Of a stretch of DNA of 51,232 bases, positions 10,282 through 32,602 are shown piece after piece; the stretch's first letter is position 1, and each line of letters begins with the position of its first letter. This DNA is from Desulfobacteraceae bacterium (GTDB lineage Bacteria > Desulfobacterota > Desulfobacteria > Desulfobacterales > Desulfosalsimonadaceae): positions 1 through 51,232 of the forward strand of contig QZKW01000081.1 in assembly GCA_003599885.1 (NCBI GenBank), written 5' to 3'. The notes beneath the pieces were generated by a model. That model was not told the DNA's origin, did no database searches, and saw nothing but the letters and a program-made list of their open reading frames with translations. The position numbers and the translations under genes are program-made.

Positions 10282-10284
10282 GGT

Positions 10285-11604
10285 TTAAAATTCCAATATA
10301 TCATACCCTTTAACATCTTCTAGTTCGACATCATAAGGATCTTTGCCGGCAATCAGGCGCTGTTCGTCCTCATTAGGCTCTTTAGGAGCAAATCCTTCTG
10401 CTGCGATTGGATCAAACTCTTCATGTTCTTCAGCCAGGTCCATCACATCAACGAACTGCCTGAGAAATTGTCTGGGAACGACTCCGACATCCCCTTTGAA
10501 ACCTTCTGTGACTTTCTTAATCAGGCGATCGATAAACTCGATGCTGACTTTTTTTGATAACCTGATACGATCAGCTGTGGAATAGGTTTCGCGAAGCTTT
10601 ACCGCGACCTCCTTTAAACGCTCCTGATTAAAAGGCTTAAGCTCTAACTGAGGCTGTCTTAAATTGGAAAACCCGCCATGTGATAAAAACTGTATGCGAT
10701 CATGAAGCGGCTGAAGTCCGGCAACGCCTCTTCGGGTATCAAAAAATTCAGGAGTTCCCGTAAATATCCATAACAAGCCTTTGAATTGATTGGCCGCATC
10801 ACATATTTGACGAATACCGTTTAAAGATTTACCGCGCACATCACGGCGCATTCGAAGAATGGTTTCTGCCTCATCAATAACGATAACCAGCCCTTTGTAC
10901 CCGGCCGCCTTAATAATTTCTAAAATCCCGTGCAAATAATTCATGGCATCACGGCTGCTGATATCACCTTTAATCCCGGCTATTTTTTTTGCATTTGCTG
11001 CCACATTTTCACTGGCAGTCAACCATGATAATAGCGCTCCTGCCTCTGCGGGCTTGCCTTGTTGCTTTAATCTAAAAATCGCGCGCAGAACACGCCCCAT
11101 ATCTTCAGGCGCTTTTCCTCGTGTAAGAGAGGCCAGATCTTCATCCATTCGTTTTTGGACAATTTCATCAAAGTCAGGACTGTCTTCGTCTGCCCCGCCA
11201 TCAATAAGACCATCCTCAACACGAGCAATCCAGCGGTCCAAAATGTCCCCAAGTGCGCCTCTGTAACAGGAGCTGGTCCCAAGTTCTTGCAAAACCTTAC
11301 GATAAATATCATCGAATTTATGAAAATGGAGATCATTATCTGAGACGACAACAAAACTGGTCGCAAAACCTTTGGCCTGGGCATCAACGACAGCAAGACG
11401 AGACATAAACGTCTTGCCACAGCCGTATCCCCCGCGTAAAAACTTAAAAGCGCCTTCCCCGTCTTCAGCCAACTTAAGCTGACGTCTTAATTCGGATCTC
11501 GGCTTATCAATACCAACGGCAAAGGTTTCCAAACCCCGCTCGGGAACCACTCCAGAGCGTAAACGTTCAAACACATGCTCAATATCCTTTTCGCTTATAC
11601 CCAT
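10285..11604 (-). CDS. brxD: BREX ATP-binding protein BrxD
   Basis: 439-residue P-loop ATPase of the DUF2791 kind. Walker A is GGYGCGKT at 58-65 and Walker B is IVIDEAET at 241-248. The N-terminus (residues ~5-40) contains a RLRSGVVPERGLETFAVG stretch typical of BrxD. The family is specific to BREX types 2 and 6 and is thought to act with the helicase encoded next to it. The gene starts 38 bp after pglZ and ends 3 bp before brxHI, so the three are co-transcribed. No defect is visible. Confidence 0.88.
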   Translation of the reverse strand: MGISEKDIEHVFERLRSGVVPERGLETFAVGIDKPRSELRRQLKLAEDGEGAFKFLRGGYGCGKTFMSRLAVVDAQAKGFATSFVVVSDNDLHFHKFDDIYRKVLQELGTSSCYRGALGDILDRWIARVEDGLIDGGADEDSPDFDEIVQKRMDEDLASLTRGKAPEDMGRVLRAIFRLKQQGKPAEAGALLSWLTASENVAANAKKIAGIKGDISSRDAMNYLHGILEIIKAAGYKGLVIVIDEAETILRMRRDVRGKSLNGIRQICDAANQFKGLLWIFTGTPEFFDTRRGVAGLQPLHDRIQFLSHGGFSNLRQPQLELKPFNQERLKEVAVKLRETYSTADRIRLSKKVSIEFIDRLIKKVTEGFKGDVGVVPRQFLRQFVDVMDLAEEHEEFDPIAAEGFAPKEPNEDEQRLIAGKDPYDVELEDVKGYDILEF

Positions 11605-11642
11605 TTTTCTTACCCTAAGTATGCATTATCAATTCAGACAAA

Positions 11643-14504
11643 TTATTCCTTAACATATCGTTTCCCGCTGTTATGCGTCTCAATTTTTACTGAAAACGGC
11701 ACCTTGCTTAAATGTGTTTCAAAAGAAAGGGCGAATTTCCTTACCTTTCGTGGTGATCCAAGTATCTGATTGAGTTCGGACTCGGTAATTGAGCCATGTT
11801 CATCAAGATGCATAAAAACGGTGCCGACCGCTTCGTCTTCAAAATTGTTACTCCAGGTCTGATCATCGGCAGAAACATCACGCCCAGCAGACTCATCATC
11901 CTGCACCGTACCTGCAACATTAAAATAAGTGTTCACGATTTCCGGTATCACATTTTCAACCCCGTCCGGATGGAAAACCTCCAGCCTTACTCGTTCATCG
12001 CGAGGGCCTGACAGATCAAAAAGGACTTCAACCGGTTTGTTATCCACAAGAACGCCAAACACCTGATTATTAAGATTTACGCCGCCCGCTTCTTTGATGG
12101 ATACCTTCACGTCTGATCGTTCTGCAACACGCAACGAAAGATTGATGCTCTGTGTTCCGGCAATATTTAATTGAGAATTGGCGGCCACGCCCACACTTAC
12201 ACGAATTCGACTGTAGCCAAGTATTTCCGGCAACACTTCTGCCTTAATCACATAACTTGAATCGGAAACAGTGGGTGCAAACCTGTGAGATACCGTCAGA
12301 ACCGGTATAATACGTTCCTGCAAACTGTTTCCACCGTGCACGAATGTTGCCCTGGGCTTCCCCGTTGCAAAGATAGCTGTATCTTTTCGAAAAAGAAGAT
12401 ATCCTTCTTGGCCTTCATAACCAAGGGAACTTAAGGATACATTTGTCATTCCTTCTTCACGACGGGGTTCAGTGCTCAACACATACCGACGGTTAGGATC
12501 TCTTTTGCTTCCGTAAGGCTTTTCTTTTGTTGTTTGGTCCTGAAGTAAAAACCCATGATCTGCGGAAAAAACAAACTCTGAAATTCCAATATTTTTAAGT
12601 TGTGTCCATGCCGTCTTGATCTGTCGCAGCCACGTTTCAAAACTGGCCAGACCGACGTTGGCTTCACCGGCATCATCGATTTCTTTTCCATAAACCACGA
12701 TTAGGTTTGAACCTGTAATACCTTTTTTGAGACTGGCACTCGAACGATTGCAAATATCATTTATTGGAAAACCGCGAGCCTTTTTTCTTCCGGAGCTGAT
12801 GTTATCAAGGCTTTTGTCTCCCATGGCCCGTATCCGTTCATCGGGCTTGTGGACGGTATATTCCCCAGTTTTAAATCCATTAAATCCCGTTCCTCCAGCC
12901 AATACCAGCTTTCCGTTTTTCACTACAGGCGCCAACACATTCATCCCAACAGATGTGACGCTGGGCAATTCGCAATAACGCCCTTTCAGATTTACCGTGG
13001 TTCCCGGGCCTTCCAAATCTTTTACAAGTTCAGCAGCCATTTCAAAGCGAAAAGCATCAATGAGAAAATAAGCTACTTTTTCATTTTGCTGGATCAAAGG
13101 ATGTACGATTTGATCGTACAAATTACGCTGCTGAAGATGACTTTGGGGAGTAAAGCCGTCTTTGTCGCAAATATCGGCAAAATCGATACCCAATGCATCA
13201 GCCCACTTGCGATATAATTGACGCAAGAGATCAGCAGCTGCAAGTAACTGGGTAAAATGCGGCAGCTTTGAATCCAGCAGATTGAGTCGTTGTTGTTCAA
13301 ACCATCGGTGAGCTTTGTCAACCTGATATCCCTCACTGGTATAGTAATCCAGAGCTGCTTCAAGATTCTTCAGTTTTTTTAATGGGTGGGATGATTTTTC
13401 CAGTTCTTCTCCCAGTTTTGCTGCATCAGCCACAAGCGTCCACACAAGTCTTCGTGTCGGTTCCTGCTTTAACCAGAAAGAGCCTGAACCAAGCCTAACA
13501 TCAGCCCAGTTAAGCGCTTGAATCCAATTCTCATTCAATAATGCCCGAACCGCCCCTTCCAGAATCCGTTCCTCTTCTTTTTTAAACGTATCTACCTGGC
13601 CCAGATCTTCCGGAGCGATGGCTTCAAGTTCCTCTTCAAGATGGGATTCTGTTAATTCAGCATACAGGATGTATACATTGGGATGTGTATCCCTTAAATA
13701 TGTAACCAGTCGGATACATGTTTTTCTTAATGGATCTGATAGAGTTTTAATGGAATTCAGATGTCCCAGATAAGGCGAACGTTTCAGATCATGAACATAT
13801 TCAACGCACATTAACCATGCGGCAAATATATCGCCGGTATCTGAAAAACTGGGTTCATCGGAGCTGCTATAAAAATATATAAAATCGGTATTTAAACCTG
13901 TGTGCCGGTATAGGTGATCAATCAAAATGGACAGTGATTCTTTATCAAAAAATTTCTCCTGCAATTTTTTTTCGTTGCACAGGAGGCCTTCTACCACCCA
14001 CTCAAGGGTTAAACTTTCTAAAAATCCTGTAAGGCCCTCCTTTGCATTAATGCTTGCCTCTTTAAGCCAAGCGTCCGCAGATTCGAGTTTTTTCCCCTCA
14101 TCCGAGTTAAGAAACGCTTCGATTTTATCCGGCTCAGTCCTACCGGTTGCCGCCTCTCTTATCAACGTGTCCAAAGCTCTTCGATACCGATAGCCAGAAG
14201 AATATAATTCAAGAACCGGCGTTTTGCGGACGGACTCTTCAGTGTGCCCAGGCATATGAATTAAAATCGGCTCCTGATCAAGCCCGTTTTCATAACCTTC
14301 CAGTGCAAACATCATCTCAAGAAAGCTTCCGCGAAACGAAACCACCGGAAAAGGAAAATCTTTTGCCATATACCGTTCAGCCAGCGAATCCACATATTCG
14401 GAATAAACGGCATGTTTATCCAACCAGACCACAATGCCTCTTTGACGGAGTTCCCGCTTAACATCCTCTTCAAGCAGAGCAGTGATGGGACCTATTTTGC
14501 TCAT
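11643..14504 (-). CDS. pglZ: BREX alkaline-phosphatase-fold protein PglZ
   Basis: 953 residues, with a long helical N-terminal half and the PglZ domain from about 470 to 700. Metal-site residues are visible as FLIDAFRFE (D483) and FSADHGF (D649, H650), with ELPSVTSVGMN (residues 512-522) at the conserved first loop. PglZ proteins are core to every BREX subtype and resemble alkaline phosphatases, with metal-dependent nuclease or phosphodiesterase activity reported for relatives. The start ATG overlaps the pglX stop by 4 bp, implying coupled translation. The C-terminal ~200 residues are beta-rich and less conserved. Intact as far as can be seen. Confidence 0.9.
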   Translation of the reverse strand: MSKIGPITALLEEDVKRELRQRGIVVWLDKHAVYSEYVDSLAERYMAKDFPFPVVSFRGSFLEMMFALEGYENGLDQEPILIHMPGHTEESVRKTPVLELYSSGYRYRRALDTLIREAATGRTEPDKIEAFLNSDEGKKLESADAWLKEASINAKEGLTGFLESLTLEWVVEGLLCNEKKLQEKFFDKESLSILIDHLYRHTGLNTDFIYFYSSSDEPSFSDTGDIFAAWLMCVEYVHDLKRSPYLGHLNSIKTLSDPLRKTCIRLVTYLRDTHPNVYILYAELTESHLEEELEAIAPEDLGQVDTFKKEEERILEGAVRALLNENWIQALNWADVRLGSGSFWLKQEPTRRLVWTLVADAAKLGEELEKSSHPLKKLKNLEAALDYYTSEGYQVDKAHRWFEQQRLNLLDSKLPHFTQLLAAADLLRQLYRKWADALGIDFADICDKDGFTPQSHLQQRNLYDQIVHPLIQQNEKVAYFLIDAFRFEMAAELVKDLEGPGTTVNLKGRYCELPSVTSVGMNVLAPVVKNGKLVLAGGTGFNGFKTGEYTVHKPDERIRAMGDKSLDNISSGRKKARGFPINDICNRSSASLKKGITGSNLIVVYGKEIDDAGEANVGLASFETWLRQIKTAWTQLKNIGISEFVFSADHGFLLQDQTTKEKPYGSKRDPNRRYVLSTEPRREEGMTNVSLSSLGYEGQEGYLLFRKDTAIFATGKPRATFVHGGNSLQERIIPVLTVSHRFAPTVSDSSYVIKAEVLPEILGYSRIRVSVGVAANSQLNIAGTQSINLSLRVAERSDVKVSIKEAGGVNLNNQVFGVLVDNKPVEVLFDLSGPRDERVRLEVFHPDGVENVIPEIVNTYFNVAGTVQDDESAGRDVSADDQTWSNNFEDEAVGTVFMHLDEHGSITESELNQILGSPRKVRKFALSFETHLSKVPFSVKIETHNSGKRYVKE

Positions 14505-17500
14505 GACGACTCACCTCCATCAGCAAAAGGCAGGCTTAGGTTATCTTGTTGCTTATCAAATGGATCTGAATCGTTTTTGTACTTTTTTTTCCGTCGCTTT
14601 AATTCATTTTTGACAAGCTTTTTTACAATTTTCGGATTTTCTTTTTCAAAATCAGCCCGTAATTGATCCGAATCCTTTTCGTCTATTGTAAAATCAAGGG
14701 CAATTTCATCCTTGAGTCTTAATTCCCATTGATATGCCTTTTCCGGATGAAATTTCCAAAAACAACCATGCGCCACGGCCAGGGAAGGATCTTTTTTACA
14801 CTTGTCATCCAGACGTTTCGGGAAATATCTTGCCGTCAGATGCGCCCAGTCATAATCTTTTCGACCTTTTGCCACGCAAAGTTCCGACCACCAGGTTCTG
14901 GGTTGTTTCCATTGGGGTTCCAAGAGCGGCCAGAGCGCGGCACTATTGATCATCACCCCATCGTCCAAATCCATTTTAAAATGGGCACTTGTCTCACGCG
15001 GCGGATCGATTGGCTTTGCTGGGGGTGGCCCCTGTTCGGCGCATTGTCTCACTATATTGATAAATTCCGTTAATTCGTCATAAAAGGACTTGGCTTCCAC
15101 AAACCGATTTTCAGAATTCGTCTGGCTTTTTTTATCGCCCTTTTTTCGAGACTCTAAAAGATCCTTCATTTCACCGTCAATCTGGTTTAACTCCGGGATA
15201 AGATATTCAGCCAACAGCGTCTTTAATGTATCGTCCGCCCAACGATGAATACTGATATAGGCTACAAAATTCTTCTTTTGGGATGACAGCGGAAAATAGA
15301 TGGGACGTTTTTCATACATATCCAGATGCACATCTGTAAAAAAAGAATGCATCAGCCATTTTTTTAAGGTTACTCCCGCGGCAATGTCACTGCCATTTTC
15401 CTCCCATGAGGATTTGAGTCCCTGGCATGCCGGATGCCTTAAACTGTCTTTATCCGATCTGGCAGACAAATATAAAATGCCGGCCGGTAAAGCCGTATCC
15501 GGAGCAATATTTAAAATACCTTCACCGCTCGCACCGAAACGACCTAAAACAATGCCGATTGCATAGGATAAATAAACCGTTTTATTTGGTTCTTCATAAT
15601 TAGGATTATACTCTAGTAAAGGTGATCCGTTTGGTCGATTAACTGATTTTTGTGCCCATTTCTGGGCGTATTTCCAAGCAGAAGGGCCGGGCTGCTTAAA
15701 TTCAATGGAAGTTTCTCGAGCTTCTTCTTGTTCAGAAAATGTTTCATCAAGTTCACCAAAAATAATATCAGATGATTCTATATTGAATAGAGCTAGACGA
15801 TTAATATCACCTACCTGAAAGTTTATTGTTGGATTCAATGCGGTAATGACCTTAGTCGTAATTTCACTATTCATTAAACAGACTGTATTAAAGACATCTA
15901 TCGGAAATACAGCCGAACCTGATACGTCAAAGATACTTTGAAATCGCATTAATCTTGCTAAAAAAGTTGAACCAATTGTGGAGTATGATATTCCTTGACG
16001 GAAAAAAAATGATTCACTGGGTATCCGTTTTGAATAAGATGAATATTTTATTTCATGAAATACTTTATGTTCAAGACCATTCCGACTCCAATTTATAATT
16101 GTAGAGAAGGTATCAAACCATTTACGACCTACCGCACCTTTAATGTAAGGGACCCATTTAATGTCTTTGAGAGACTCTATCGTTGAATTAAATAATTGTG
16201 CAGTAATGTCTAAATTAATCACTTCCCAAAAAAATCTTAAAAACCGAGGATTATTTGATGTGGCCATACCTTGCCTTACCTCAGTTTCGTCACCTAATTT
16301 TGGAGTTTTTTCATACTGCTGGACAAATTCCTCATCCCACCAATAGATGAAGGGATGCCCCTGAATAGCTTTAAAAGTTTTGAGTAGACAAATATAATAT
16401 CCATATGGCGCAATAAGGCCTGAAATATTTCTAAAAATCTGTTTAACATCTCGAACAATTAATTTATATTTAACTGGCTGCAAAAATAGTGTCTCTCTAT
16501 CATTTTGGGATGTGTTTGCGATTATACACATTGCGACCGAAACATCCCTCATTTCAGGGAAAGCACCAAAGTGAAGATCAGCAATAGAGTATAGATATTT
16601 CTGATCTTCTATATAATACCGTAGATTTTCATAATCTTTAATAAACATCCACCCACGCATTGTTACCATCGCAGACAAACCGAAAGATTTTGTCAGTTCA
16701 ATACCTCGCTTTAAAAAAACCGCATAAAGGTCAGCTTTCCCTTCCGGATAGTATGCATCAATATATTGTTTATCTGCAATTTTACCGCCGCCCAAATACG
16801 GCGGGTTTGCAACCACCAGATCATACTGTCCCTGTTTGACAAGACGGATAAACCGGACCCCGGCAGCCAGTTGTTCTCCACGCATCCGCAATCCTAGATC
16901 ATGTCCGCTGGTGCATTTATCCAGAAACTTATCAAGCTGCTCCAGAAAAGAGACCTTTGCCTGATCAAATGTCAGCAGTGTTTGTTCCGGCTGACGTGTT
17001 TCCCAAAGTTTTCTCTGAATATGAGGGCTATGCGGGTCCGTTCGTTTCAACCCGCCAATGCGTTCATGTTCCCTGATTGCCTCATCCACACATTCATCGA
17101 CTTTAAGCAGGCTGCCCAGATGATCTGCGCCTTTTAATGCATGTAAGATCTTTTCCGTGAGATCTTCAGGAATGCCTGTGGCAAGTTCCACTTCTTGCTT
17201 GAGTTCATATATTGCAGGATCATCATCCGGCAGTGAAGCCAGCCCTAAGTTGGATGCGACCAGATTGATTATTTTGGGAGAAGCAGTTTTACAGAATGAT
17301 TTTGCTTTTATCATCAAAGCAGCAGCGGCGATCTGGACGGCTCGTGGATCGAGGTCCACGCCATGCAGGTTATTTTCAATAATCTGTTCAGCGATCTGTC
17401 TGTCCGTCCAGGTTTCTTTTTTATGGTGTGCTTCTTCACGGTAAAAATTAATCAGCAAGTCAAACGCCAGAATCAGAAAATGCCCTGACCCAACTGCCGG

Positions 17501-18508
17501 GTCCAATATTTTAAGTTCGGTTATGGAATCCGGAACTGAATCTATAAAAGCTTCAGGCAGAGGCTGTTTTACCCAATATTTCCATTTCTGCTCCTGATCA
17601 CTTTCAATCGGCATGATGGCTTCAGGAGGAATTTCTCCGGAATTTCTTTTGGTGCGCCACTCCTGTCTGCGTTTTTCAAGGGCAGCCAGCGTACCATCGG
17701 ATTGCGCCCGGCATGTCCATCCGTTTTTTTCGCATATGGCCAGCCATTGGTTATTCAAACTGTTTTGAAGTAACCATTCCACCATATACCGTTCAGTGAA
17801 AAGCTGGGTTTTTGCCGCGATCTCATGTTTCTCAATTTTTCCCTGATTAGCGACTTTTTGGTCAAGCGCTTCGCGTTCTTTATCATTCCAGAACTGATAT
17901 ACCCAGCCACAGGTGGTGTCATCCGCCCAGACGCTATCTAAATCCTTATCGTCAAATGCTTCGATCACAGCCCTGATCGTTACTGCCGGAACAGGAAAGA
18001 GTTCCGATATCCCCATATCACCAAAAAGTCCTGGCAAATCCACGGCAAGCTCATTGAATAATAATTTTAAAAGGGTCTCAAACCCTTCAGTTTCATCTTT
18101 GAGCAGTGCCGGTGCAAACTCCCGGAACTCCCGATATCCTGAGCTCATTAAACCGCCGGTTACCACAGCGGGTCTAATAAGGCCAATGGCCTCCATATAC
18201 CGAATGACCACTATACGGTTTAAAAAAGTGGCTGCTGCTAACTTAACAGCAGTCTGATAATGCCGGCCCCTTGCCTGTGAATGCGTCTCTTTTTTACCTC
18301 TGGACTCACTTCTCGCCTGTTCATCCAACCAAGCTTCCAGCCGTTGGCGCTTTACATTAACTAATTCATTTAAATCTGCTTTTCCTATGGGCATGGAAAA
18401 CCGATAAAAACTATCGGCAGCATTATGAAAATCGTTTAACAGTCTTTCTCGAAGCTTTTCGATGGTAGCAGACAGCTTCGATTTGGCTTCCGGGGTCATT
18501 GAAGTCAT
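14501..18508 (-). CDS. pglX: BREX adenine-specific DNA methyltransferase PglX
   Basis: 1335 residues. The S-adenosylmethionine motif is LDPAVGSGHF (335-344) and the catalytic motif is NPPY (568-571), the pattern of N6-adenine methyltransferases. PglX marks host DNA at a short asymmetric site and supplies BREX specificity. The segment at about 15600-16650 (residues ~620-970), just after NPPY, is much poorer in G+C (near 30% in sampled lines) than the flanks (near 50%). This fits exchange of the target-recognition part. The gene runs through without a break, so methylation should be active. It lies 28 bp after brxC and overlaps pglZ by 4 bp. Confidence 0.92.
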   Translation of the reverse strand: MTSMTPEAKSKLSATIEKLRERLLNDFHNAADSFYRFSMPIGKADLNELVNVKRQRLEAWLDEQARSESRGKKETHSQARGRHYQTAVKLAAATFLNRIVVIRYMEAIGLIRPAVVTGGLMSSGYREFREFAPALLKDETEGFETLLKLLFNELAVDLPGLFGDMGISELFPVPAVTIRAVIEAFDDKDLDSVWADDTTCGWVYQFWNDKEREALDQKVANQGKIEKHEIAAKTQLFTERYMVEWLLQNSLNNQWLAICEKNGWTCRAQSDGTLAALEKRRQEWRTKRNSGEIPPEAIMPIESDQEQKWKYWVKQPLPEAFIDSVPDSITELKILDPAVGSGHFLILAFDLLINFYREEAHHKKETWTDRQIAEQIIENNLHGVDLDPRAVQIAAAALMIKAKSFCKTASPKIINLVASNLGLASLPDDDPAIYELKQEVELATGIPEDLTEKILHALKGADHLGSLLKVDECVDEAIREHERIGGLKRTDPHSPHIQRKLWETRQPEQTLLTFDQAKVSFLEQLDKFLDKCTSGHDLGLRMRGEQLAAGVRFIRLVKQGQYDLVVANPPYLGGGKIADKQYIDAYYPEGKADLYAVFLKRGIELTKSFGLSAMVTMRGWMFIKDYENLRYYIEDQKYLYSIADLHFGAFPEMRDVSVAMCIIANTSQNDRETLFLQPVKYKLIVRDVKQIFRNISGLIAPYGYYICLLKTFKAIQGHPFIYWWDEEFVQQYEKTPKLGDETEVRQGMATSNNPRFLRFFWEVINLDITAQLFNSTIESLKDIKWVPYIKGAVGRKWFDTFSTIINWSRNGLEHKVFHEIKYSSYSKRIPSESFFFRQGISYSTIGSTFLARLMRFQSIFDVSGSAVFPIDVFNTVCLMNSEITTKVITALNPTINFQVGDINRLALFNIESSDIIFGELDETFSEQEEARETSIEFKQPGPSAWKYAQKWAQKSVNRPNGSPLLEYNPNYEEPNKTVYLSYAIGIVLGRFGASGEGILNIAPDTALPAGILYLSARSDKDSLRHPACQGLKSSWEENGSDIAAGVTLKKWLMHSFFTDVHLDMYEKRPIYFPLSSQKKNFVAYISIHRWADDTLKTLLAEYLIPELNQIDGEMKDLLESRKKGDKKSQTNSENRFVEAKSFYDELTEFINIVRQCAEQGPPPAKPIDPPRETSAHFKMDLDDGVMINSAALWPLLEPQWKQPRTWWSELCVAKGRKDYDWAHLTARYFPKRLDDKCKKDPSLAVAHGCFWKFHPEKAYQWELRLKDEIALDFTIDEKDSDQLRADFEKENPKIVKKLVKNELKRRKKKYKNDSDPFDKQQDNLSLPFADGGESS

Positions 18509-18536
18509 AGGATATTTCTCTTTTTTACTGAGCAGT

Positions 18537-21500
18537 CTATATCAGGCGAATACGCATATTGTCTTTGAGTTGAGCCAAAAGCCTCTCGCGAAGTTCATTT
18601 ATCATCATTTCAACCTCTTCAGAGGTGCTGACTTCCCGTCCCTTAAGATTAATTTGAAACCGTACAACCTGTTTTTCGGTCAGTTCGGAAAGGAAATCAT
18701 CCAGCCTATCATTTGCCTCTTCTTCTGCTTCCCTTAATCTTGAAACGACCGAATCCTTCAGTAATTCCAGCGTCGGATTAATTGCATCCGGTGTTGTATC
18801 ATAAAGCTTGAGCGTTATAGGGCGAAGCACATTATAGACCTGATCGTTGCTGAGTTTTTCAAACCCAGTCCGTTGCTTAATGCGTTCCCTGATTTTTTGA
18901 GCCATCTGTTCCTGACGCTCTATCAGCTCCAAGCGGACCTCACGGTATCGGTCTTGTATAACTGTTAAATGGGGATCGATACTTGATATGTCCCGCCAGG
19001 GCCTTTCTTGCAGAAGTTGTTTATCCAGAATCCGGGCTGCCTCTTCAGCCTCACCCAAACCATCAATTGCCTGGAGCTGGCTTACACGAAAATTCTGAAT
19101 ATCCTGGGCGCGCCGGACAGCCTCAAGGTTCTGATCCGTCAATTCAGTCAAAAGAATGCCAAGTTGCTGCATACCATCTCTTAAGACATCCAGATTTTTT
19201 TTCATTTCAAGAACGGTTGGTTCAATGTGCCTGGATCGCTTGCAGTCTTCAAGGGCTTGCCTGAGCTTGGATAGGGATTCCGGAAGTTCAGGACGACCGG
19301 GCAAACGATTAAACTTTGCTTCCAGTTCCTGCAATCGTTTGACCTGGCCGGGAAACTGCTGAAAAACAGCATCCGCAATGGCATCATTTTCACGATCAAG
19401 ATCAATATCAAGGCTGTCTTTAAAAAAATTACATATGGCATTCCTGTCTCTGGGACCTATTCCTGTTCCACTCGGCGGCAGAACGTCCGCCCGTTTGAGG
19501 TCTCGATCTTTCTGAAACATATCCTTAACACCGGGATCACGGACCGATGTGATTTCCGGACCGGCATCCGGGCGTATACGTATTTTAGTTGCTCTGAGAA
19601 GACCGACCAGGCAAGCCTTGATCACATCCGCAGGATATCCACATGGCGGGCCGCCAAATTTATTCAGCAATACATTTCCGGCTGAACCGCCCTCATCTTC
19701 TATATATCGCAGAATACGACTGGGAACTTCGCCGCTGCATGTGGGAATATATCTTCCAGCATCAAGTTCGAGAATACCCAGCTCACCGTTCATAAATTTA
19801 TTCGACGGCCCGGAAAGGGTTGGCTCAAGCAATTGATTGAGCTCTCCCGGCGTTACTGCCATATCAACAAACATATTATACAATTCCGGAAGGATACTCT
19901 CGGCAGCCCCGTGGATTACTGTGGCAAACGTGGAACCCTGTGCCTGCTTATCAATGATACGGCCTTTATAATAAATTTCTCCATCCATAAATATCTGAGC
20001 TGTGGCTGACTGCGTCTGTTTTTCCAGCTCTTCACATCGACTTTGTTCCTCATAATACAGCCGTTGTTTATTCTTCGACAGGGATTGAACACGAGGTGCG
20101 TATCTGTTTACCGTATGTCTCGATCGGGCCAGATCTCGAATTAAAGAAGGAAGAGTGCCAACACTTCCTGCGACCCATATCATTCGATTCTTGAGGTGCT
20201 GTGAATCACTTTCCGTTATCCAGATACTCGAGCTTCGATCATCATTATTAGTAAAATATCGAAAATCAACATATACTGACGCTTGATCATTTGGATTTTG
20301 AATAAGCTCATCTTTTTTTTGTTTCCCGTCGCTGAAATATGCTGTCCATGGGAAGGCTTTTCTTTTTAGTCTTGGACGATCCAGGGTTCCCATCAGGTCT
20401 TTTAATTTTTCACCGACAATGGAACTGATTTCATCGGCTGTGATACCAAAAGAGTCTCTTTCTTTTTGCCATTCCTGCCCCGCAGAACTTTGCAGTTTAT
20501 ATCCCAGCTTTTCAGAATATGAAAGCAACCCCAAGCGGGTCAGTTTTTCGAGCGCTTTTTGAACTTCAGATTCAATATTGCCCATGCCGATACGGGCATA
20601 AAGACACTGACTGATCAGCTGAATCGTTGTCGGCTCCTGTTCCTGAATTAATTCCAGAAGCGAAACCACTTTGGCGACTCTTACAGCCAGTTCATCATTT
20701 GTGATATCTTCATGGATAAGAATCCGCATCATGGTGTTCTGGATATCAGCATCTAAAGCTGTTTGCTGGACTTCATAAATATTATCTAAGGTTACAAGGG
20801 CTCCGAGCTCTTTCTCGCCCAGAGCCTGATCACGAAAAAGTTCGCCAAGAAGCTGGAGTAAACCGCGAATCGCATGATCGTCTCCCTTTATCCGACTGGA
20901 TCGTGTTCGCAAGCTGGATGTGATTTGCATCAAAAGATCCACATGACCGGGGAGCATTGGGTATACTTCTAAAAAATCCTCCTCGGTAATTGCTCCGCAG
21001 GAGTATCCATATAATTTCAAATCACTTCGGTTTGTGTGGAAAAGATCTCTCAGTAAAGACTCTTTTGAGGGATCTTTTTTCAATAACCGTTTGTGTACGA
21101 CATCACGGATATTGGTCACGGAGAGATGCACTCTCAGTTTGTTCGGGAAACGGTCTTTTAATTTTCCGATGTTGTCTTCATCATCCGCATCTTCTAATTT
21201 TTGCTGGCCTGTTGCAATCAACCAGACCAGGCCTTTTAATTTCTGGCCTAGATCGGATACAAATGACTGGAGTTTGAGCACACGATTATCGTTTTGGTGG
21301 ATATACTGATAAACCTCATCCACAATGATAAAAAGGGTCTTGCCTGGTGCGCGGATATTGAGCATTTCAGTGATGGCTTTGGTCGTTTCCGAAACAGAAG
21401 AACCGATTGTGCTTTGTGATCCGGCACGGCTGTCAATCCAGCTCATAGGATCAGTATATCTCTCAGGATGCATCGCATGGAGGACTTCAGAGAAGTCCTC

Positions 21501-22157
21501 TTCTGCGAGCTGATGCGTCTTTGCCTCATCCCAGGTTTTGCCGAGCGTTTTTTCAGCCTGTACGAGAAAATCCTGCCATAAGCCATCAATTTCAAGCTTA
21601 AGCTCATGTTCGGCCACATGATTACTTATTGTGCAATAACCAAGCCTGTGCTGGATTTCACGTTTTACAGCAGAATGGATATGTTCGTTATCCCGAGCAA
21701 CGGACCCAATATCAAAAACAACCGCAATAGGATCAATCTGGCTTCGAACGTCCTCCCAAACTTTTTTAAAATCTTGTGCTTTAGGTGAATCATCTCTCGA
21801 AAGCAGTGCTTCGGCAAGCGGACGACTGTCCGGCAGCACTAAGCCGTCTAAGGCAAGACCTAATAACTTTGCGAAACTGGATTTACCGGAGCCATAAAAG
21901 CCGGAAACCCATGAAGCGGGAAGTTCCACACCATTTTCTTTTCTTAGTTCGGCTGAAAGGGCTTTTAACAAACTGACAAATTGTTCATGAATACCGGACT
22001 CGATGCGTTTATGGCGGGGATCGGACTCCGGATACCCTCCGGTGATAATGTATTCGGAAACCTCTTCTGCAACTTTTTCAGGTGCTTTTTCGTGGAAATA
22101 AACAACTGGCGCAATATCACGGGTTACATCGGCTGAGAAAATATCCTTTATCAACAT
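18537..22157 (-). CDS. brxC: BREX P-loop ATPase BrxC
   Basis: 1206 residues. Walker A is GFYGSGKS (86-93) and Walker B is FIIVDEVYQY (276-285), with the SWVSGFYGSGKSSFAKLLG context characteristic of BrxC/PglY. The C-terminal half has long coiled-coil stretches. BrxC is a large AAA-type ATPase and a core component of all BREX types; it is thought to form a complex on DNA with BrxB and PglZ. It starts 17 bp after brxB and ends 28 bp before pglX. Length and motifs are normal. Confidence 0.92.
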   Translation of the reverse strand: MLIKDIFSADVTRDIAPVVYFHEKAPEKVAEEVSEYIITGGYPESDPRHKRIESGIHEQFVSLLKALSAELRKENGVELPASWVSGFYGSGKSSFAKLLGLALDGLVLPDSRPLAEALLSRDDSPKAQDFKKVWEDVRSQIDPIAVVFDIGSVARDNEHIHSAVKREIQHRLGYCTISNHVAEHELKLEIDGLWQDFLVQAEKTLGKTWDEAKTHQLAEEDFSEVLHAMHPERYTDPMSWIDSRAGSQSTIGSSVSETTKAITEMLNIRAPGKTLFIIVDEVYQYIHQNDNRVLKLQSFVSDLGQKLKGLVWLIATGQQKLEDADDEDNIGKLKDRFPNKLRVHLSVTNIRDVVHKRLLKKDPSKESLLRDLFHTNRSDLKLYGYSCGAITEEDFLEVYPMLPGHVDLLMQITSSLRTRSSRIKGDDHAIRGLLQLLGELFRDQALGEKELGALVTLDNIYEVQQTALDADIQNTMMRILIHEDITNDELAVRVAKVVSLLELIQEQEPTTIQLISQCLYARIGMGNIESEVQKALEKLTRLGLLSYSEKLGYKLQSSAGQEWQKERDSFGITADEISSIVGEKLKDLMGTLDRPRLKRKAFPWTAYFSDGKQKKDELIQNPNDQASVYVDFRYFTNNDDRSSSIWITESDSQHLKNRMIWVAGSVGTLPSLIRDLARSRHTVNRYAPRVQSLSKNKQRLYYEEQSRCEELEKQTQSATAQIFMDGEIYYKGRIIDKQAQGSTFATVIHGAAESILPELYNMFVDMAVTPGELNQLLEPTLSGPSNKFMNGELGILELDAGRYIPTCSGEVPSRILRYIEDEGGSAGNVLLNKFGGPPCGYPADVIKACLVGLLRATKIRIRPDAGPEITSVRDPGVKDMFQKDRDLKRADVLPPSGTGIGPRDRNAICNFFKDSLDIDLDRENDAIADAVFQQFPGQVKRLQELEAKFNRLPGRPELPESLSKLRQALEDCKRSRHIEPTVLEMKKNLDVLRDGMQQLGILLTELTDQNLEAVRRAQDIQNFRVSQLQAIDGLGEAEEAARILDKQLLQERPWRDISSIDPHLTVIQDRYREVRLELIERQEQMAQKIRERIKQRTGFEKLSNDQVYNVLRPITLKLYDTTPDAINPTLELLKDSVVSRLREAEEEANDRLDDFLSELTEKQVVRFQINLKGREVSTSEEVEMMINELRERLLAQLKDNMRIRLI

Positions 22158-22174
22158 GGTATACCCCTTAAATC

Positions 22175-22831
22175 CTACTGTTCATGTATATTATCATCAT
22201 AAATTCTGGGTCTGTAATCCCGATCTGCAGGGAGCTCTCCCATAAAAGACAAAGCTGTCAAATCGCGACGTTCCCCTGGATAAAGCAACACAACTGGAAT
22301 ATTGCGGGTTTTGCCATCAATATGCTTTAAAAGAGAAGAAGATCGAAAAAATGGATACAAAGCACCAGCCCTGCCAACAAAAATAAGTGTCTTTTCCTTT
22401 TCAACAGAATAACGGTCGGCAAATTCCCCGATCAATTTAACAACGGCGCTTGCCACCCCATCCGGTTCCTCAATATATGGCATTAATTTATCTTTAAGAT
22501 AGCTCAAAGCACGATTCGGATCGTTCTGGTAAAGTTTGTGTTCTCTTCTCATAAAACTTTCAATGACTCTGGAATCCTCTGACTTCAAACGACTCATCAG
22601 AATTCGTTTCAAGGAAATTGAAAGAACATTCCACCCCATGCTCTTTAATTCATCGCTGAGTTTGCGGATGTGATTACGAAGTTCAAATTCCTTGCGCGGA
22701 TCGTATGGTAAAATGGCAAATCGATAATTTCGCATGGTACTGATCCGCGGCCCGCCTTCAGAAAGAAGATCCTTACGGAGCGCATGAACAGAAGAGATTA
22801 GGGAAGTTCTCGGAAATAACAGATCGTTCAT
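22175..22831 (-). CDS. brxB: BREX protein BrxB (DUF1788)
   Basis: 218 residues of the DUF1788 kind. Signature stretches are FAILPYDPRKEFELR (about 43-57), TLIFVGRAGALYPFFRSSSL (about 152-171) and VVLLYPGERRD. BrxB is a small protein of unknown activity found in BREX types 1, 5 and 6, and interacts with other BREX core proteins in studied systems. Its ATG overlaps the brxA stop by 4 bp. No catalytic motif is apparent. Confidence 0.88.
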   Translation of the reverse strand: MNDLLFPRTSLISSVHALRKDLLSEGGPRISTMRNYRFAILPYDPRKEFELRNHIRKLSDELKSMGWNVLSISLKRILMSRLKSEDSRVIESFMRREHKLYQNDPNRALSYLKDKLMPYIEEPDGVASAVVKLIGEFADRYSVEKEKTLIFVGRAGALYPFFRSSSLLKHIDGKTRNIPVVLLYPGERRDLTALSFMGELPADRDYRPRIYDDNIHEQ

Positions 22832-23655
22832 TCGTTAGCCTCCGGATGAATAGAAAATATATGGTTTGCCCAATCCATTAAATCACTATACGCCCAATCA
22901 AATTCCTGTAGCCCACCCATTAGACTGAATTTTAAATCCTTTAACCTTCGCAACCGCTGAGAAAGGTTCCCTTCAATCAGGCCTACCGACATAAGATAAT
23001 GATTAGAAAGAATGGTCCCATTGAATTTCACTTCTCGAAGAAGATAAAGTATGTAAGATAGGCTGAGATCATCGACATGGGGATACTGCAGCTTGCGAAC
23101 CCCAGGCACAGGGGAAAGCATCCCGGCTTCTGCGGCTGAAGAAATCAGATTATTTGATACCCGGTTGATGGTTGATGCTGCCCACTTGTTTTCAATGCGT
23201 TGTGAAAGCCATCGGGCCACTATATCGCGATCAACTCTCGGTTCGGGATGCATTCGCCTTTCATTTAAAAAAGCGCCTGTAAAATCCCGATATATGGGAT
23301 CTGCTAACTGAAGATGCCAATGGCAGAGATTTTTCCTTATTTTGATTTCATTCGGCTGCCATTTACACAGAACCTTCAAAGCCTGCGGGTACAAATCAAA
23401 ACGTCTACGGAAGTTGGTCAGCAGCAACTGAATACGGGCCATGCTTTTATTGCCGAACCATCTTTCCTCAAACGCCACTTTAGCGATTTCTTTTCTTGAA
23501 ATTTCTGGCCGGAGGTTTTCCCAGTATGCACGGCTATCTTCAGCAGAGAGAGCCATCCTTAAAAGAAGCGTATGCTCCATTGTTGCTTCAGCGTTTATAA
23601 CCAAAGCATCCTTTTTCATAATTTCAGGAGTATTGTTAATTTCTTGTTTTCCCAT
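22828..23655 (-). CDS. brxA: BREX protein BrxA (DUF1819)
   Basis: 275 residues of the DUF1819 kind. BrxA proteins are small DNA-binding proteins with a fold like the RNA antiterminator NusB. Visible conserved parts are ALSAEDSRAYWENLRPEI (about 36-53), WHLQLADPIYRDFTGAFL (about 113-130) and WAASTINRVSNNLISSAAEA (about 158-177). It is second in the operon, 12 bp after brxE. Nothing suggests damage. Confidence 0.88.
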   Translation of the reverse strand: MGKQEINNTPEIMKKDALVINAEATMEHTLLLRMALSAEDSRAYWENLRPEISRKEIAKVAFEERWFGNKSMARIQLLLTNFRRRFDLYPQALKVLCKWQPNEIKIRKNLCHWHLQLADPIYRDFTGAFLNERRMHPEPRVDRDIVARWLSQRIENKWAASTINRVSNNLISSAAEAGMLSPVPGVRKLQYPHVDDLSLSYILYLLREVKFNGTILSNHYLMSVGLIEGNLSQRLRRLKDLKFSLMGGLQEFDWAYSDLMDWANHIFSIHPEANE

Positions 23656-23667
23656 AATTGAGTCAGT

Positions 23668-24228
23668 CTAAACCCTAAAAAACGGGACAGGGTATTGGGT
23701 ATCAAGTGGCAATAGTGCTGCAGCAAGATGCCTTGCAGTTAATTCATGAGATGCCGGTATTGGGCCTTTAAGCTCGCGACCACCAGGTACAATTTTATAC
23801 TCTATCGTGTTTCCAGGAATACGAATAGTTTCTTCAAACTCAGATCTATTAAACTTAGAATAAAGGTCAATTGGGATGGGTAAAACTTCTGACGGTGGAT
23901 TCAAATTATGCCTTAGATAATCCAACCGTTCCTGAATTTTTTCGTCTATTTCAAAACCCCAGAAAAAAAGAGTTCTGATTTCATCTGGCTTTGCCATTGA
24001 TTGACGGGCCTGATCATCAACAGACATGGCAGCTTTTCTGACAGCTTCAACAGAAGCCCACGGATAGGTTTTGGGTAACAATCGTTTTAAAAAATCACCC
24101 CCGCCTTCCGCATCTACGAGATCGGTTTTCCACCAATCCAAACGTTTGGGTTCAGACAAACCCTCACCCGCCCATGCAACAGTAATCTGCAATGCCAATA
24201 TATTATCAATAACAGCATTTGAAATCAT
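23668..24228 (-). CDS. brxE: BREX type 6 protein BrxE
   Basis: 186 residues, first gene of the operon. The sequence WAGEGLSEPKRLDWWKTDLVDAE near residues 19-41 and the RLLPKTYPWASVEAVRKAA that follows fit the BrxE family, which is diagnostic of type 6 BREX. Molecular function is unknown. The ATG at 24228 follows AAGG on the minus strand. Assignment leans partly on position ahead of brxA, brxB and brxC. Confidence 0.82.
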   Translation of the reverse strand: MISNAVIDNILALQITVAWAGEGLSEPKRLDWWKTDLVDAEGGGDFLKRLLPKTYPWASVEAVRKAAMSVDDQARQSMAKPDEIRTLFFWGFEIDEKIQERLDYLRHNLNPPSEVLPIPIDLYSKFNRSEFEETIRIPGNTIEYKIVPGGRELKGPIPASHELTARHLAAALLPLDTQYPVPFFRV

Positions 24229-24422
24229 AAATACCCTTATATAAAAATTCAGAATTTCTATATATCTGAAATTGTAGATTTATCGTTATTTTACATCAAT
24301 GATTTTAATCAGAATTTTATCAAGTCCTTCTAATACAACATTTTGGCCCACATTACAATTAAATCTAAATAATGTTAAAGATTTATCTCTTTTGATAAAT
24401 ATAAACCCTGCCTTGACTTATT
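24229..24422. promoter_or_regulatory. Divergent control region, BREX / STAND nuclease
   Basis: 194 bp, very AT-rich, between two genes reading outward. It contains nested inverted repeats: AATTTC (24253-24258) with GAAATT (24268-24273), and TTCAG (24248-24252) with CTGAA (24266-24270). This resembles a regulator-binding site about 20 bp before brxE. No regulator gene such as brxR is encoded beside it. Confidence 0.5.
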
Positions 24423-27400
24423 ATGGGTCATACTTCAAAATACATAATCAATTTAGCACTATCAGCTGGTTACGATTTGGCTGAAAAGCTGGTTTACGGA
24501 CACTCAAAGAAATATAATTCATGGGGTGTAATGGATAATTTCATAGATCAATATTGTGATTTGGATCGCCGATTCTTAAAAGTTTCTGAGCATAAAACTG
24601 CTGAGGAATTAGCCAAAGAAAGTTACATTTCCTCTTTTTTGGGGAGTGAGACAGACCTTAACTGGGAAGATATCTTACAACATCCAATAACAGTAATCTT
24701 AGGTGAACCTGGTAGTGGAAAGAGCAAGGAATTTAAAGCACAATCTGAAAAATTGAATTTTAATTCAGTATTGGCTTTTTATATCCCCCTTGATCGTTTA
24801 GTAAGCGATTCATTCGGAACAGTTCTTGGACAAAAACAATTGCAAATATTTGAACAATGGCAAAAAAATAATAGCAAAGCCTATTTTTTCTTTGATTCCG
24901 TTGATGAATCTAAGCTTCGGAAACCAGATGACTTTTTCATCGCACTCGATAAAATAAGCGAAGTCATCGACTTAAAAGAATTGTCCAGAGCAACACTGGT
25001 TTTTAGCTCTCGCATTTTTGAGTGGCGGCCTTCAACAGATTATTTTGAAATTATAAAGCGTTTTCCAATTTCTGAAAAATCCTCAACATCTGAGTCTGAA
25101 GAAAATATTCAAGATAATGGTCTTATAGTAGCATATTTAGCGCCACTTGATAGAACCCGTGTTCAAAAATACATTAATTGGCATAATGTTTATGATCAGG
25201 AAAATCTATTGTTCGCTTTGGATGAAAACCATGCATGGGAATTTACTAGACGTCCGTTAGATGTCAATGGCCTTATTGAATTTTGGAATTCAAATGGTCG
25301 CCTTGGCTCACTAAATGAAATAATCGAATACAGTGTATCTCTTTGCTTGAAAGAAAGCGAAGGTCGAGAGACTCTTGATCCATTATCTCCAAAAATTGCA
25401 CGCAAAGGGATTGAATCTCTGGCAGCTGCTGCTGTGCTATGCCAGAATCTTAATTTCAAAGTCCCAGACGATGCCTTCATAGTGAAAAACGCAGCATTAA
25501 ATAGTTCTGCAATTCTTCCATCGAGTTGGACAACAAAGGAAAGACGGGCATTGTTGTCACGTCGGATCTTTGATGCCGCTACTTACGGTTGTATCCGTTT
25601 TCATCATCGCAGAACGATGGAATATCTTTGTGCATGTTGGCTTAATGAGCGCATCAAAGATGGGTGTCCCGAAAAAAATCTATTGGATCTGCTTTTTGAA
25701 AAATATAAAGGACAATATTTATTACGCCCAAAACTCGCGCCTGTAGCGGCTTGGCTTGCAAACGGCGATGAATCTCATAATAAGCTGGTAAGAGAAACAT
25801 TATTGAAAACTGAGCCTGAAATTCATTTCCAATTGGGTGACCCAGCGCAGCTCCCACTTGAGTATAAACGGAAAGTCTTGCGAACTTTGTCAAACCGTTA
25901 TGAAGGCTGCCGCAATATATGGCTTGATCGGGATGAGGAAGCTCTCAGTCGCCTTGCTGACGTGAATCTTTCGCCAGATATTTCTGATCTGATGTTAAAC
26001 AAAAATATGCCCGCCAAATTTCGAATATTTATGTTGTCATTGGTACAACATAAGCAAATTAAAGATTGTTATGAGTCAGCATTGCAAATTATAGCTGATT
26101 CAGATGAAGAGGATACCTTAAAAACATATGCTGTGGCAGCATTGATGGAAGATGCTGATTCAAAAATTAAATATAAATTAACCGAAATAGCATCTTCGAT
26201 GCGGGTTTTATCGGTTCAGTTTTCAAGTATAATATGCGAAACTCTTTATCCCGATTCAATTGATGAAGAATGTTTTATTAATTTGCTGCGAAAAACCAGA
26301 GATATTTCTATAATTCAATATCACTGGTATTCGCTGAAAAAACATCTTGATGAAATACTCACGATTAACCAATCGATCCTTCTGTTGGAATATATGATGG
26401 ATTTACTTGAAACAGAGCCTTTTACGGAATCCCGTGATATTAAGATTTCTCAATACTGCCTATGGTTGATCAAATTAATTCCCGGCATTTTATTGAGGCT
26501 CTTTGAAAAAGAAAGCCTTAAACAAAGTGAAACCATTCTGGCTGCAAAGTGTATCCCGATATTAGAAAAATTTAAAGATTATACTGGCCTTAATAATGAA
26601 ACTAAAATTCAATATTTTAAAGATGCGCTATGCCGTCACAAAGGGATAAAAGTTGAGTATATTTGGCATAAAATTGAAAGATACCGCATCAAAAATGGTA
26701 AAGAACCCGACTGGTTTCCATTGCTTTTCATAAGCGATAGTTTTTTCAAAATTGAAAAAAATGATATTTTCTGGCTATTGAACGAAGCTCAGAAAAAAGA
26801 AGAAGATAGTGATAGAAAAATCGCACTTCGATTCGCTTTTTACATTTGGCAGGCATATCGACTGCAATGGCAGGCAACTCTTATCATGTTGAGGATGTTA
26901 TTTACTTGCCAGGGTTTGCGCGGATTTTCGCTAAAATATTTTTGTCAATCTTTGATCTCTCCCGTCAAAAGCTTCTGGGTTCGAAAAATTAAAATGAAAC
27001 TTTTTCATAAATATTGGTGGACAAATCATTGGTGGAATATAAAGAGAAAATTAAACCGAATTAGTGATTATTATTACATTCACCGTTATATCTTTTCGAT
27101 CAATTCAGGAAAAAATATCATGATGTTAGGCAGCTTATTACATGAAGCAGTGAGCTCCAATGATTTTTGTAGATGGTCTGTCGAAGATTGGTCGTTGTTA
27201 GAAAAAAAATATAGTAGATGGATAGCAAAAGCTGTGCAGCATGGTTGTGAAATAAGTTGGCAGAGATATATTCCACCTCTGCCACATGAAAAGAATTCAA
27301 ACACAACAAGTTATCAAACCATAATTGGGTTATGCGGGTTGCACTCTCTTTGGAAAAAAAATAAATTATTTTTTGATAAACTTTCAGAGCGCGATGCTGA

Positions 27401-28814
27401 AATTATTGCGAGATACGGTTTATCCGACTTCAATGGTTTTCCAGAATGGTTTCCGGATTTCGCCAGTAAACTAAGGCAAGTTGTAATAAAAATATTTAAA
27501 CAGTGTATTGAAGGTGAATGGCGGTTTCCATCTTCAAGAGATAGTGTCCATGAGGTCTTGTCAAAAATTTCAGAGCAGGGCGAATTCTTTTGGCAAATAA
27601 CAAAAGATGATTTGCTATGGCAATTAAAAATACAAGATCCCTATAACCCAAAAATTCTTGAAAAAACACTATCAATATTAATGCGACTGCCGGAAACTGA
27701 AATGTCGAAGGACCCATTGATTTCAATAGCAATACAGAGGGTAACAATTTATCCTTACAAAAGTGACTTCTTTATCATTTGGCTTGTTACATGGATTAAA
27801 TTAATGGGGAACGGTGCGATTAGCTTTCTTTCAGCTTACTTCCTTGATTTGGGTTTTAAAGAGGCAAGCGGGTTATTAATTCGCATCTGTAGCGAATTAA
27901 AGGGTGAACGTTTATCTCGACAGCTTCATCGTGATCGTAAAAAATATTTAACACCTCAATTTCTCAGAATTTTTATACCCCTTGCACATATGTATATTCA
28001 ACCAGAAAATGATATTGTGAGAAATGGGGAAGGCTCCTACAGTCCAACCTCACGAGATAAAGCTCAGGAGTTTCGTGATAATCTTTTATCAATTCTGGCG
28101 GAAACAGAAGATCCAACTGTGATATCGATATTAAAGAGATTGCAGTCTTTGCCAGAATTGTCAGTGCGTAAAGAGTTGATTTCACACCTTATTCAACAAC
28201 ACATGAAAAGTATGATCGATCTGTCCCCTTGGCAGGAAGATGATATTCGAAATTTTGAGAATGATTTTGAATTCGACCCCCGCAATGATGCTGATTTATA
28301 TCGTATCGCATGCCAGCGCCTACGTGATATTAAATCCCAAGTGGAACGTTCTGATAATAGTCTCCGGGATGAGGTTCTCAAAGACTGGGACGAAGCCGCC
28401 TTGAGAAAATGGCTAAAAAGAAAATTGGAAGATCGTTCAAGACAGCGCTATACAATCCCGCAAGAAGCTGAAGTGGATCGCAGAAAAAAACCAGATTTAC
28501 TGTTTGAAAATCCTAATATCAATTCAGGCATACCCGTTGAAATTAAATGGGCTGATAAACATTGGACTGCCGCAAATCTTCTGGAACGATTGGAGAATCA
28601 GCTTTTTGGTCAATACATGCAGGCTGACAATATTCGCTATGGTATTTATTTGCTTGGATTTATCGGTAATAAACAGAGATGGAATCATCCAACTGAAAAG
28701 CGAGATATAGGCTTTGAAGAATTAGTGAACATTGTCAAACATCGAGCCAAGGAAATTGTGGAAAATTGTCCCGGGATTAATTCAATTCAAGTATTTTCTA
28801 TTGATTTTACCTAA
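24423..28814 (+). CDS. STAND/NACHT-like NTPase with C-terminal PD-(D/E)XK motif
   Basis: 1463 residues from the ATG at 24423; ATG 24531 is an alternative and neither has a strong ribosome site. An NTPase core follows a ~90 residue N-terminus: GEPGSGKS (94-101), FFFDSVDE (155-162) and VFSSRIFEWRPS (~189-200). The DxxDE form of Walker B is that of STAND/NACHT ATPases. A ~1000 residue helical, repeat-like middle follows, suited to sensing. The C-terminus carries KKPDLLF then VEIKWADKHW and a QLFGQYM about 25 residues on, the D...ExK...Q order of a PD-(D/E)XK nuclease. The likely role is a defence sensor that triggers DNA cleavage. G+C is lower than in BREX, suggesting separate acquisition. Exact family not recognised. 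Confidence 0.72.
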   Translation: MGHTSKYIINLALSAGYDLAEKLVYGHSKKYNSWGVMDNFIDQYCDLDRRFLKVSEHKTAEELAKESYISSFLGSETDLNWEDILQHPITVILGEPGSGKSKEFKAQSEKLNFNSVLAFYIPLDRLVSDSFGTVLGQKQLQIFEQWQKNNSKAYFFFDSVDESKLRKPDDFFIALDKISEVIDLKELSRATLVFSSRIFEWRPSTDYFEIIKRFPISEKSSTSESEENIQDNGLIVAYLAPLDRTRVQKYINWHNVYDQENLLFALDENHAWEFTRRPLDVNGLIEFWNSNGRLGSLNEIIEYSVSLCLKESEGRETLDPLSPKIARKGIESLAAAAVLCQNLNFKVPDDAFIVKNAALNSSAILPSSWTTKERRALLSRRIFDAATYGCIRFHHRRTMEYLCACWLNERIKDGCPEKNLLDLLFEKYKGQYLLRPKLAPVAAWLANGDESHNKLVRETLLKTEPEIHFQLGDPAQLPLEYKRKVLRTLSNRYEGCRNIWLDRDEEALSRLADVNLSPDISDLMLNKNMPAKFRIFMLSLVQHKQIKDCYESALQIIADSDEEDTLKTYAVAALMEDADSKIKYKLTEIASSMRVLSVQFSSIICETLYPDSIDEECFINLLRKTRDISIIQYHWYSLKKHLDEILTINQSILLLEYMMDLLETEPFTESRDIKISQYCLWLIKLIPGILLRLFEKESLKQSETILAAKCIPILEKFKDYTGLNNETKIQYFKDALCRHKGIKVEYIWHKIERYRIKNGKEPDWFPLLFISDSFFKIEKNDIFWLLNEAQKKEEDSDRKIALRFAFYIWQAYRLQWQATLIMLRMLFTCQGLRGFSLKYFCQSLISPVKSFWVRKIKMKLFHKYWWTNHWWNIKRKLNRISDYYYIHRYIFSINSGKNIMMLGSLLHEAVSSNDFCRWSVEDWSLLEKKYSRWIAKAVQHGCEISWQRYIPPLPHEKNSNTTSYQTIIGLCGLHSLWKKNKLFFDKLSERDAEIIARYGLSDFNGFPEWFPDFASKLRQVVIKIFKQCIEGEWRFPSSRDSVHEVLSKISEQGEFFWQITKDDLLWQLKIQDPYNPKILEKTLSILMRLPETEMSKDPLISIAIQRVTIYPYKSDFFIIWLVTWIKLMGNGAISFLSAYFLDLGFKEASGLLIRICSELKGERLSRQLHRDRKKYLTPQFLRIFIPLAHMYIQPENDIVRNGEGSYSPTSRDKAQEFRDNLLSILAETEDPTVISILKRLQSLPELSVRKELISHLIQQHMKSMIDLSPWQEDDIRNFENDFEFDPRNDADLYRIACQRLRDIKSQVERSDNSLRDEVLKDWDEAALRKWLKRKLEDRSRQRYTIPQEAEVDRRKKPDLLFENPNINSGIPVEIKWADKHWTAANLLERLENQLFGQYMQADNIRYGIYLLGFIGNKQRWNHPTEKRDIGFEELVNIVKHRAKEIVENCPGINSIQVFSIDFT

Positions 28815-29184: not shown

Positions 29185-29222
29185 AAGAAGCCATCTGGTC
29201 ACTGACCAGATGGCTTCTTTTA
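29185..29222 (+). terminator. 17-bp inverted repeat, terminator or attenuator
   Basis: The arm AAGAAGCCATCTGGTCA (29185-29201) pairs perfectly with 29203-29219, and T-rich sequence follows. It stands 45 bp ahead of the AAA gene start. It may end transcription from the STAND gene or act as an attenuator for the module. A related hairpin with the same CTGGTCA core occurs at 32293-32330. Confidence 0.6.
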
Positions 29223-29266
29223 TTTATACCCCAGTAACCCCATACAAAACAGGAGATGAATTGACC

Positions 29267-30676: not shown

Positions 30677-30677
30677 C

Positions 30678-31055: not shown

Positions 31056-31107
31056 CAGCTCATACCATCCCATAACATCTCATCTCATAATAAAAAAGGA
31101 GGACCAC

Positions 31108-31305: not shown

Positions 31306-31390
31306 TCCCACACTCATTTTCAATTCGTCTGTTTCATCAACCAGAATCACCAATCATCATTAAAAATAAACATTTTAAAAGGAGAGTCTT

Positions 31391-32263: not shown

Positions 32264-32292
32264 ACCATTCCCATATAAACATAAATTCATTC

Positions 32293-32330: not shown

Positions 32331-32346
32331 ATTTCAGGGAGACGAT

Positions 32347-32535: not shown

Positions 32536-32602
32536 TCCGGAGATTCCTTGCGGAAGCCCTTCAACCAAGCCATCAACCCATCTATTGAAAAGGAGAACCA
32601 AC

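Follow-up and report, generated by a model that had tools for sequence, protein, structure and literature searches.

What does a long gene do that reads away from a phage defense operon, and does it serve that operon or act for itself? The question is raised by a stretch of 51,232 nucleotides from a Desulfobacteraceae bacterium (contig QZKW01000081.1, positions 1 to 51,232, all of which I will call the window), where an open reading frame (ORF) of 1463 codons on the + strand, at 24423..28814, lies back to back with a bacteriophage exclusion (BREX) operon. I will argue that the gene probably encodes an NLR-like antiphage receptor that is complete in one protein and acts alone, not as a part of BREX. 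By profile and alignment, it is a deep-branching relative of an already named antiphage family, HyoA, a closeness that went unseen in a preliminary description of this DNA.

Family, fold and domain order

The family model NF058534 of NCBIfam (antiphage_HyoA, "NACHT domain-containing antiphage protein") matches residues 47-1463 over profile positions 1-1428 of 1430, hence along the full length of the model, with 1077 bits; since this falls under the curated cut-off of 1200 bits, I call the protein HyoA-like and not HyoA. The EruA model (NF058535) reaches 148 bits over residues 82-1419, far under its own cut-off of 1000 bits, a Pfam search of the protein returned nothing even at E 1, and PADLOC gave mad8 alone, weakly (E 0.0042). 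When the single protein was used as the query in a scan of genome contigs, no relative was found. HyoA matches at E <=0.001, always counting the window's own genome, where the gene is the single match in 90 contigs, occur in 9 of 98 genomes (two over the cut-off) and in 13 of 395 genomes of the phylum (three over it), and further in 64 plasmid records and two phage-collection records; the named genomes among them indicate many phyla. Of 158 relatives 80 were kept, and contig ends truncate many of the loci. One of the two phage-collection records, listed under the name Acinetobacter phage MD-2021a (CAKLQH020000024.1, L045), seems to come from a bacterial chromosome, since its HyoA-type gene is surrounded by metabolic genes and efflux pumps. 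A literature search found no paper naming HyoA as a defense protein, and the accessible part of the DefensePredictor paper contains no mention of "Hyo".

Within this family the window protein stands apart, with 21-26% identity to 13 other aligned rows, and a tree of 92 rows, made by a quick method and showing long branches, sets it on a deep branch as sister to the N-terminal half of a relative from genome G284 (38% identity over 724 columns), with three distant rows (L034-L036) falling outside. This closest relative is split over two contigs, and a DRT-like reverse transcriptase adjoins its 3' half. The frame is open throughout, and 1463 amino acids is its longest reading; the true start is probably M37 (24531..24533), giving 1427 amino acids, because the relatives begin at about that point and a GGGG lies just upstream.

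The protein is predicted to open with a NACHT ATPase that has WHD/HD2-like domains and to end in a PD-(D/E)XK nuclease that keeps all its catalytic residues. The nucleotide-binding core (about residues 80-300, 24660..25322) carries the Walker A motif GEPGSGKS (residues 94-101, 24702..24725) and the Walker B motif FFFDSVDE with its acidic cluster (residues 155-162, 24885..24908), and is followed by the WHD/HD2-like region (about residues 301-512, 25323..25958), which lies within the structural alignments of the N-terminal model with NLRs; the best of these rows spans model positions 4-501, that is residues 33-530, and the model has the NACHT-HD1-WHD fold of NACHT-class STAND NTPases. Conservation was read from 70 full-length rows (ORFs of >=1400 amino acids, window protein included), a length filter that drops nuclease-less members by construction, so that the counts concern full-length relatives only. 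In 70 of these 70 rows G99, K100, D158, S159, D161, E162 and R197 are identical, and so are E1348, D1358, E1373, K1375 and Q1393 at the other end (28464..28601). The middle (about residues 513-1317, 25959..28373), which I propose as the sensor, is HEAT-like, and helical wherever it was modeled, residues 601-1199 lying outside the models; profile matches to designed alphaRep repeats occur at its start, and conservation is low in residues 551-650 and 1051-1150, although residues 201-250 are equally low.

The nuclease domain (residues 1318-1463, 28374..28811) was placed by an AlphaFold2 model of residues 1200-1463 (predicted local distance difference test score 88.9) and its structural alignment, which predict the alpha-beta core of a PD-(D/E)XK fold. 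A Foldseek search of this model against the PDB gave no match at E 0.001, PDB sequence searches with the protein found no homologue, and in a PDB profile search with residues 30-600 the matches were limited to designed alphaRep repeats and one fusion protein. Much of what the preliminary description had read from the letters is borne out here: the 1463-residue frame with both ATPase motifs near its N-terminus, the STAND-type NTPase (now a NACHT ATPase), and the C-terminal D...ExK...Q motif (D1358, E1373-x-K1375 and Q1393, to which E1348 can be added) with the nuclease fold it called for, while the very long helical middle holds for the modeled parts.

The best rows in the structural alignment of the nuclease model are restriction and related nucleases, type II restriction enzymes above all, and this brings in a different reading, that of a restriction-type enzyme which would recognize DNA directly, with a constitutive or auxiliary nuclease and an ATPase serving DNA engagement instead of alarm signaling. 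A family member standing in a row with an Snf2/PLD helicase and a type IIG enzyme could be cited for it as well. However, the N-terminal fold is that of an NLR alarm receptor and not of a helicase, apart from the pglX of BREX no methyltransferase accompanies the window gene, and of 12 annotated neighborhoods examined from plasmid or phage collections 2 contain a methyltransferase, directly adjacent in neither, all of which makes this reading quite unlikely. I consider it highly improbable that the gene is a decayed or inactive remnant, as its deep branch, its lower GC and relatives that lie in pieces or are frame-broken (L049, L050, L084, L096, L114, L115, L135) might suggest, given a frame open over 1463 codons in which every conserved catalytic residue is kept.

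Fold, catalytic residues and family thus place the protein as an NLR-like receptor of reversed order. In such a receptor the long helical middle would hold the protein closed and recognize a phage product, whose binding would allow ATP exchange and NACHT-driven assembly; assembly would gather the tail nucleases so that DNA is cut, and the phage genome would be destroyed or the infected cell stopped, the tail acting as an exchangeable effector module. The order itself is at variance with the available text on bNACHT proteins, in which the effector is N-terminal, the NACHT central and the sensor C-terminal, "as with all STAND NTPases" (PMC12169576). The HyoA-like protein has no separate domain ahead of the NACHT (about residues 80-300) and the nuclease (1318-1463) comes last, which confirms the reversal that had been noticed at the outset. 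This order is unusual among STAND proteins, yet among the HyoA-type proteins examined it is the rule.

The neighboring BREX operon

The operon that lies back to back with the gene is a BREX type 6 operon in the order brxE-A-B-C-pglX-pglZ-brxD-brxHI (8170..24228, - strand), and I judge it to be context outside the system. The brxE gene (- strand) and the HyoA-like gene (+ strand) diverge across 194 bp, or 302 bp when counted from M37 (24229..24530), with 23% GC over 24229-24422. Divergence over this short distance favors the idea that the protein might be a back-up effector of BREX, fired when BREX is inhibited and with a divergent promoter region in common. The divergent arrangement stands, but the promoter part does not gain from closer analysis, as three promoter-like matches were found in 24100-24700 against 3.5 expected by chance; short repeats, which may be chance occurrences, are present between the two genes. 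The idea is reasonable in general, because nucleases including PD-(D/E)XK and OLD enzymes recur as auxiliary or back-up effectors beside BREX, as part of the text by Rakesh and Krishnan reports (PMC12839542).

Whether relatives recur beside type 6 brxE, a check that the preliminary description had put forward, was examined in both directions, and no such tie was borne out. Hidden Markov models (HMMs) of BrxE, BrxA, BrxB, BrxC and PglZ, built from four BREX type 6 loci, matched none of 1831 ORFs (E 0.01) in 106 HyoA-type loci, a set that includes a duplicate contig (L025/L057), one gene split over two contigs, many loci cut by contig ends and the distant, putatively HyoA-type L034-L036. The BrxD and BrxHI models found a match on one Klebsiella plasmid, where the matching proteins are SngB and SngC, BrxHI had one more weak match (L063), and the best of four PglX matches (41 bits) is the type IIG enzyme of L031. 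In the other direction, no HyoA was found in the stretches examined of eight other BREX type 6 loci (five genomic and three plasmid), about 2.6-20 kb upstream of brxE, with the proviso that in two of the five (L156 and L157) the ORF filter dropped brxE, so that short HyoA fragments could escape. In the order, brxE exceeds its cut-off in 6 of 389 genomes, the window's own included.

What can be set on the side of the back-up idea, besides proximity and the published precedent, is a second HyoA gene next to the BrxD-BrxHI relatives SngB-SngC, a HyoA-type gene that closely follows a gene for a type IIG restriction-methylation enzyme, and base composition, since almost all of the remaining window genes measured are richer in GC than both the gene and BREX, and GC at third codon positions is 31.1% in the gene against 31.6% in brxE (37.5-41.6% in the other BREX genes). 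Over whole genes, however, the HyoA-like gene has 36.6% GC against 41.7-45.4% in the BREX genes and 45-51% in nine other window genes. Composition thus leans towards a separate arrival of gene and operon without proving it, and because of the near-equal value of brxE and the shared GC poverty it does not settle the link by itself; the survey of loci is the stronger argument. With no recurring linkage in either direction in the loci examined, the back-up function was rejected as the leading explanation and is unlikely, and of the two options first offered, that of a second, unlinked system is the better fit, ahead of a back-up for BREX. The placement beside BREX looks like chance, and the neighbor is no evidence of cooperation. 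As to the operon itself, three plasmid BREX type 6 loci were compared with it, and the closest of them comes from the cyanobacterium Aulosira laxa (BrxE 52% identity, BrxC 1843 bits), a resemblance that suggests wide transfer.

On its 3' side (29210-34391) the HyoA-like gene is followed by an AAA ATPase and a DUF1257 protein, which I take to be a Ycf46/Ycf35-like pair, and then by DUF3150, SWIM-like and Cas4-like PD-(D/E)XK proteins, all encoded at higher GC than the gene, while close to the distal end of BREX (6022-6669) there is a protein with a YagK/YfjJ C-terminal, Rep-like domain, perhaps the trace of a mobile element. Around the relatives, PADLOC was run with no background control on 208 ORFs, the nearest four at each of 52 loci, and among the 25 commonest families, which alone are listed, GajA, GajB and SoFic have two members each, PtuA models up to four and PtuB models up to five, although the Septu numbers are no count of systems, because PtuA and PtuB models cross-match and both Pseudomonas Septu loci described below are included. 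Some relatives of the HyoA-like gene thus do adjoin defense genes, as had been expected of a defense protein, and enrichment in defense islands is suggested. In L031 (3-10877) the gene of an Snf2/PLD helicase is followed after about 100 nt by that of the type IIG restriction-methylation enzyme, and this after 13 nt by a HyoA-like gene, and on the Klebsiella plasmid (L044, 7592-16257) SngB and SngC are followed by HyoA.

Possible exchange of the C-terminal effector

The nuclease model is absent from 11 of 103 loci with a HyoA match, of which four are truncated where their contigs stop and one has a broken frame, with a tblastn match that continues to 1447. The other six just end early. Among these six, four stop at profile positions 1245-1252, and the tblastn matches of L130 and L115 stop at query residues 1260 and 1256, L115 being frame-broken further up too. 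In two Pseudomonas genomes (L124, 9992-17082; L130, 9977-17038) the nuclease-less HyoA-type gene overlaps ptuA, followed by ptuB, the genes of Septu (PtuA 1069 and 1061 bits, PtuB 428 and 414 bits). On two Rhizobium plasmids (L047, 10928-15831; L159, 2901-7786) the HyoA gene lacks the nuclease and has its start overlapped by a Fic gene, the two cassettes being one lineage as they share 93% DNA identity. In a phage-like IMG/VR contig (L138, 7989-11915), where the surrounding genes, judged by eye, resemble late phage genes, those for the tail among them, a C-terminal hydrophobic segment replaces the nuclease. Two early-ending genes (L089 and L115) have no substitute effector that was identified.

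Of the four nuclease-less genes scored, the one on the phage-like contig has 983 bits, but the other three (1230, 1245 and 1429 bits) reach the HyoA cut-off, and this supports the notion that the nuclease may be a detachable effector of HyoA-type proteins. That STAND proteins exchange effectors at the N-terminus was already known, from what is available of PMC9122126; what appears to be new, judging from gene layout, is exchange at the C-terminus or for a neighboring gene. Of the papers listed when the literature was searched for Septu in combination with STAND or NACHT, none mentions PtuA. I therefore put forward, tentatively and as a possibility that I rate somewhat short of even, that HyoA-type proteins are back-to-front NLR-like receptors with a constant chassis of ATPase plus repeats (about 1250 profile positions) and, beyond the sensor, a plug-in effector, mostly a nuclease, a membrane anchor in the prophage-like contig, or else an overlapping Septu ptuA-ptuB pair or Fic gene, the window copy forming a deep branch apart, with a trigger of its own. 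If this is true, the N-terminal clustering that activates effectors in known NLRs and Avs cannot be the route here, and an NLR can drive Septu; truncated chassis that overlap Septu or Fic genes would turn these into outputs of an NLR-like sensor. This possible exchange is a more interesting lead than the window protein itself.

Comparison with known systems

The closest comparison is HyoA itself, with which the window protein shares similar length, end-to-end alignment, N-terminal NACHT and C-terminal nuclease, and from which it differs by its score below 1200 bits, its low identity and its deep branch; EruA is a related NACHT antiphage family whose cut-off remains far out of reach. Animal NLRs, chiefly NLRC4, differ in that the window protein has no separate domain before the NACHT and carries a nuclease fold at its C-terminus. 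Upx (9wuf) differs in giving no sequence match in the PDB sequence searches or in PADLOC, which may lack a Upx model. BREX type 6 adjoins the gene in the window, but the HyoA-like protein is judged to be no component of it, as the loci examined show no recurring linkage. In Avs nucleases a STAND ATPase is joined to a PD-(D/E)XK nuclease; PADLOC, which may cover Avs models in part, returned none of them for the window protein. The same holds for bNACHT25 and bNACHT32, which cause DNA to be degraded upon infection according to the accessible text of PMC12169576, but in both groups the nuclease is N-terminal, ahead of the ATPase, and the sensor C-terminal, the reverse of the window protein. Finally, the STAND proteins of P4-like satellites share the STAND NTPase, the C-terminal repeats and an exchangeable effector (TIR, SIR2 or nuclease, in the part of PMC9122126 available), but while these swap their effectors at the N-terminus, HyoA-type proteins appear to do so at the C-terminus or by means of a neighboring gene.

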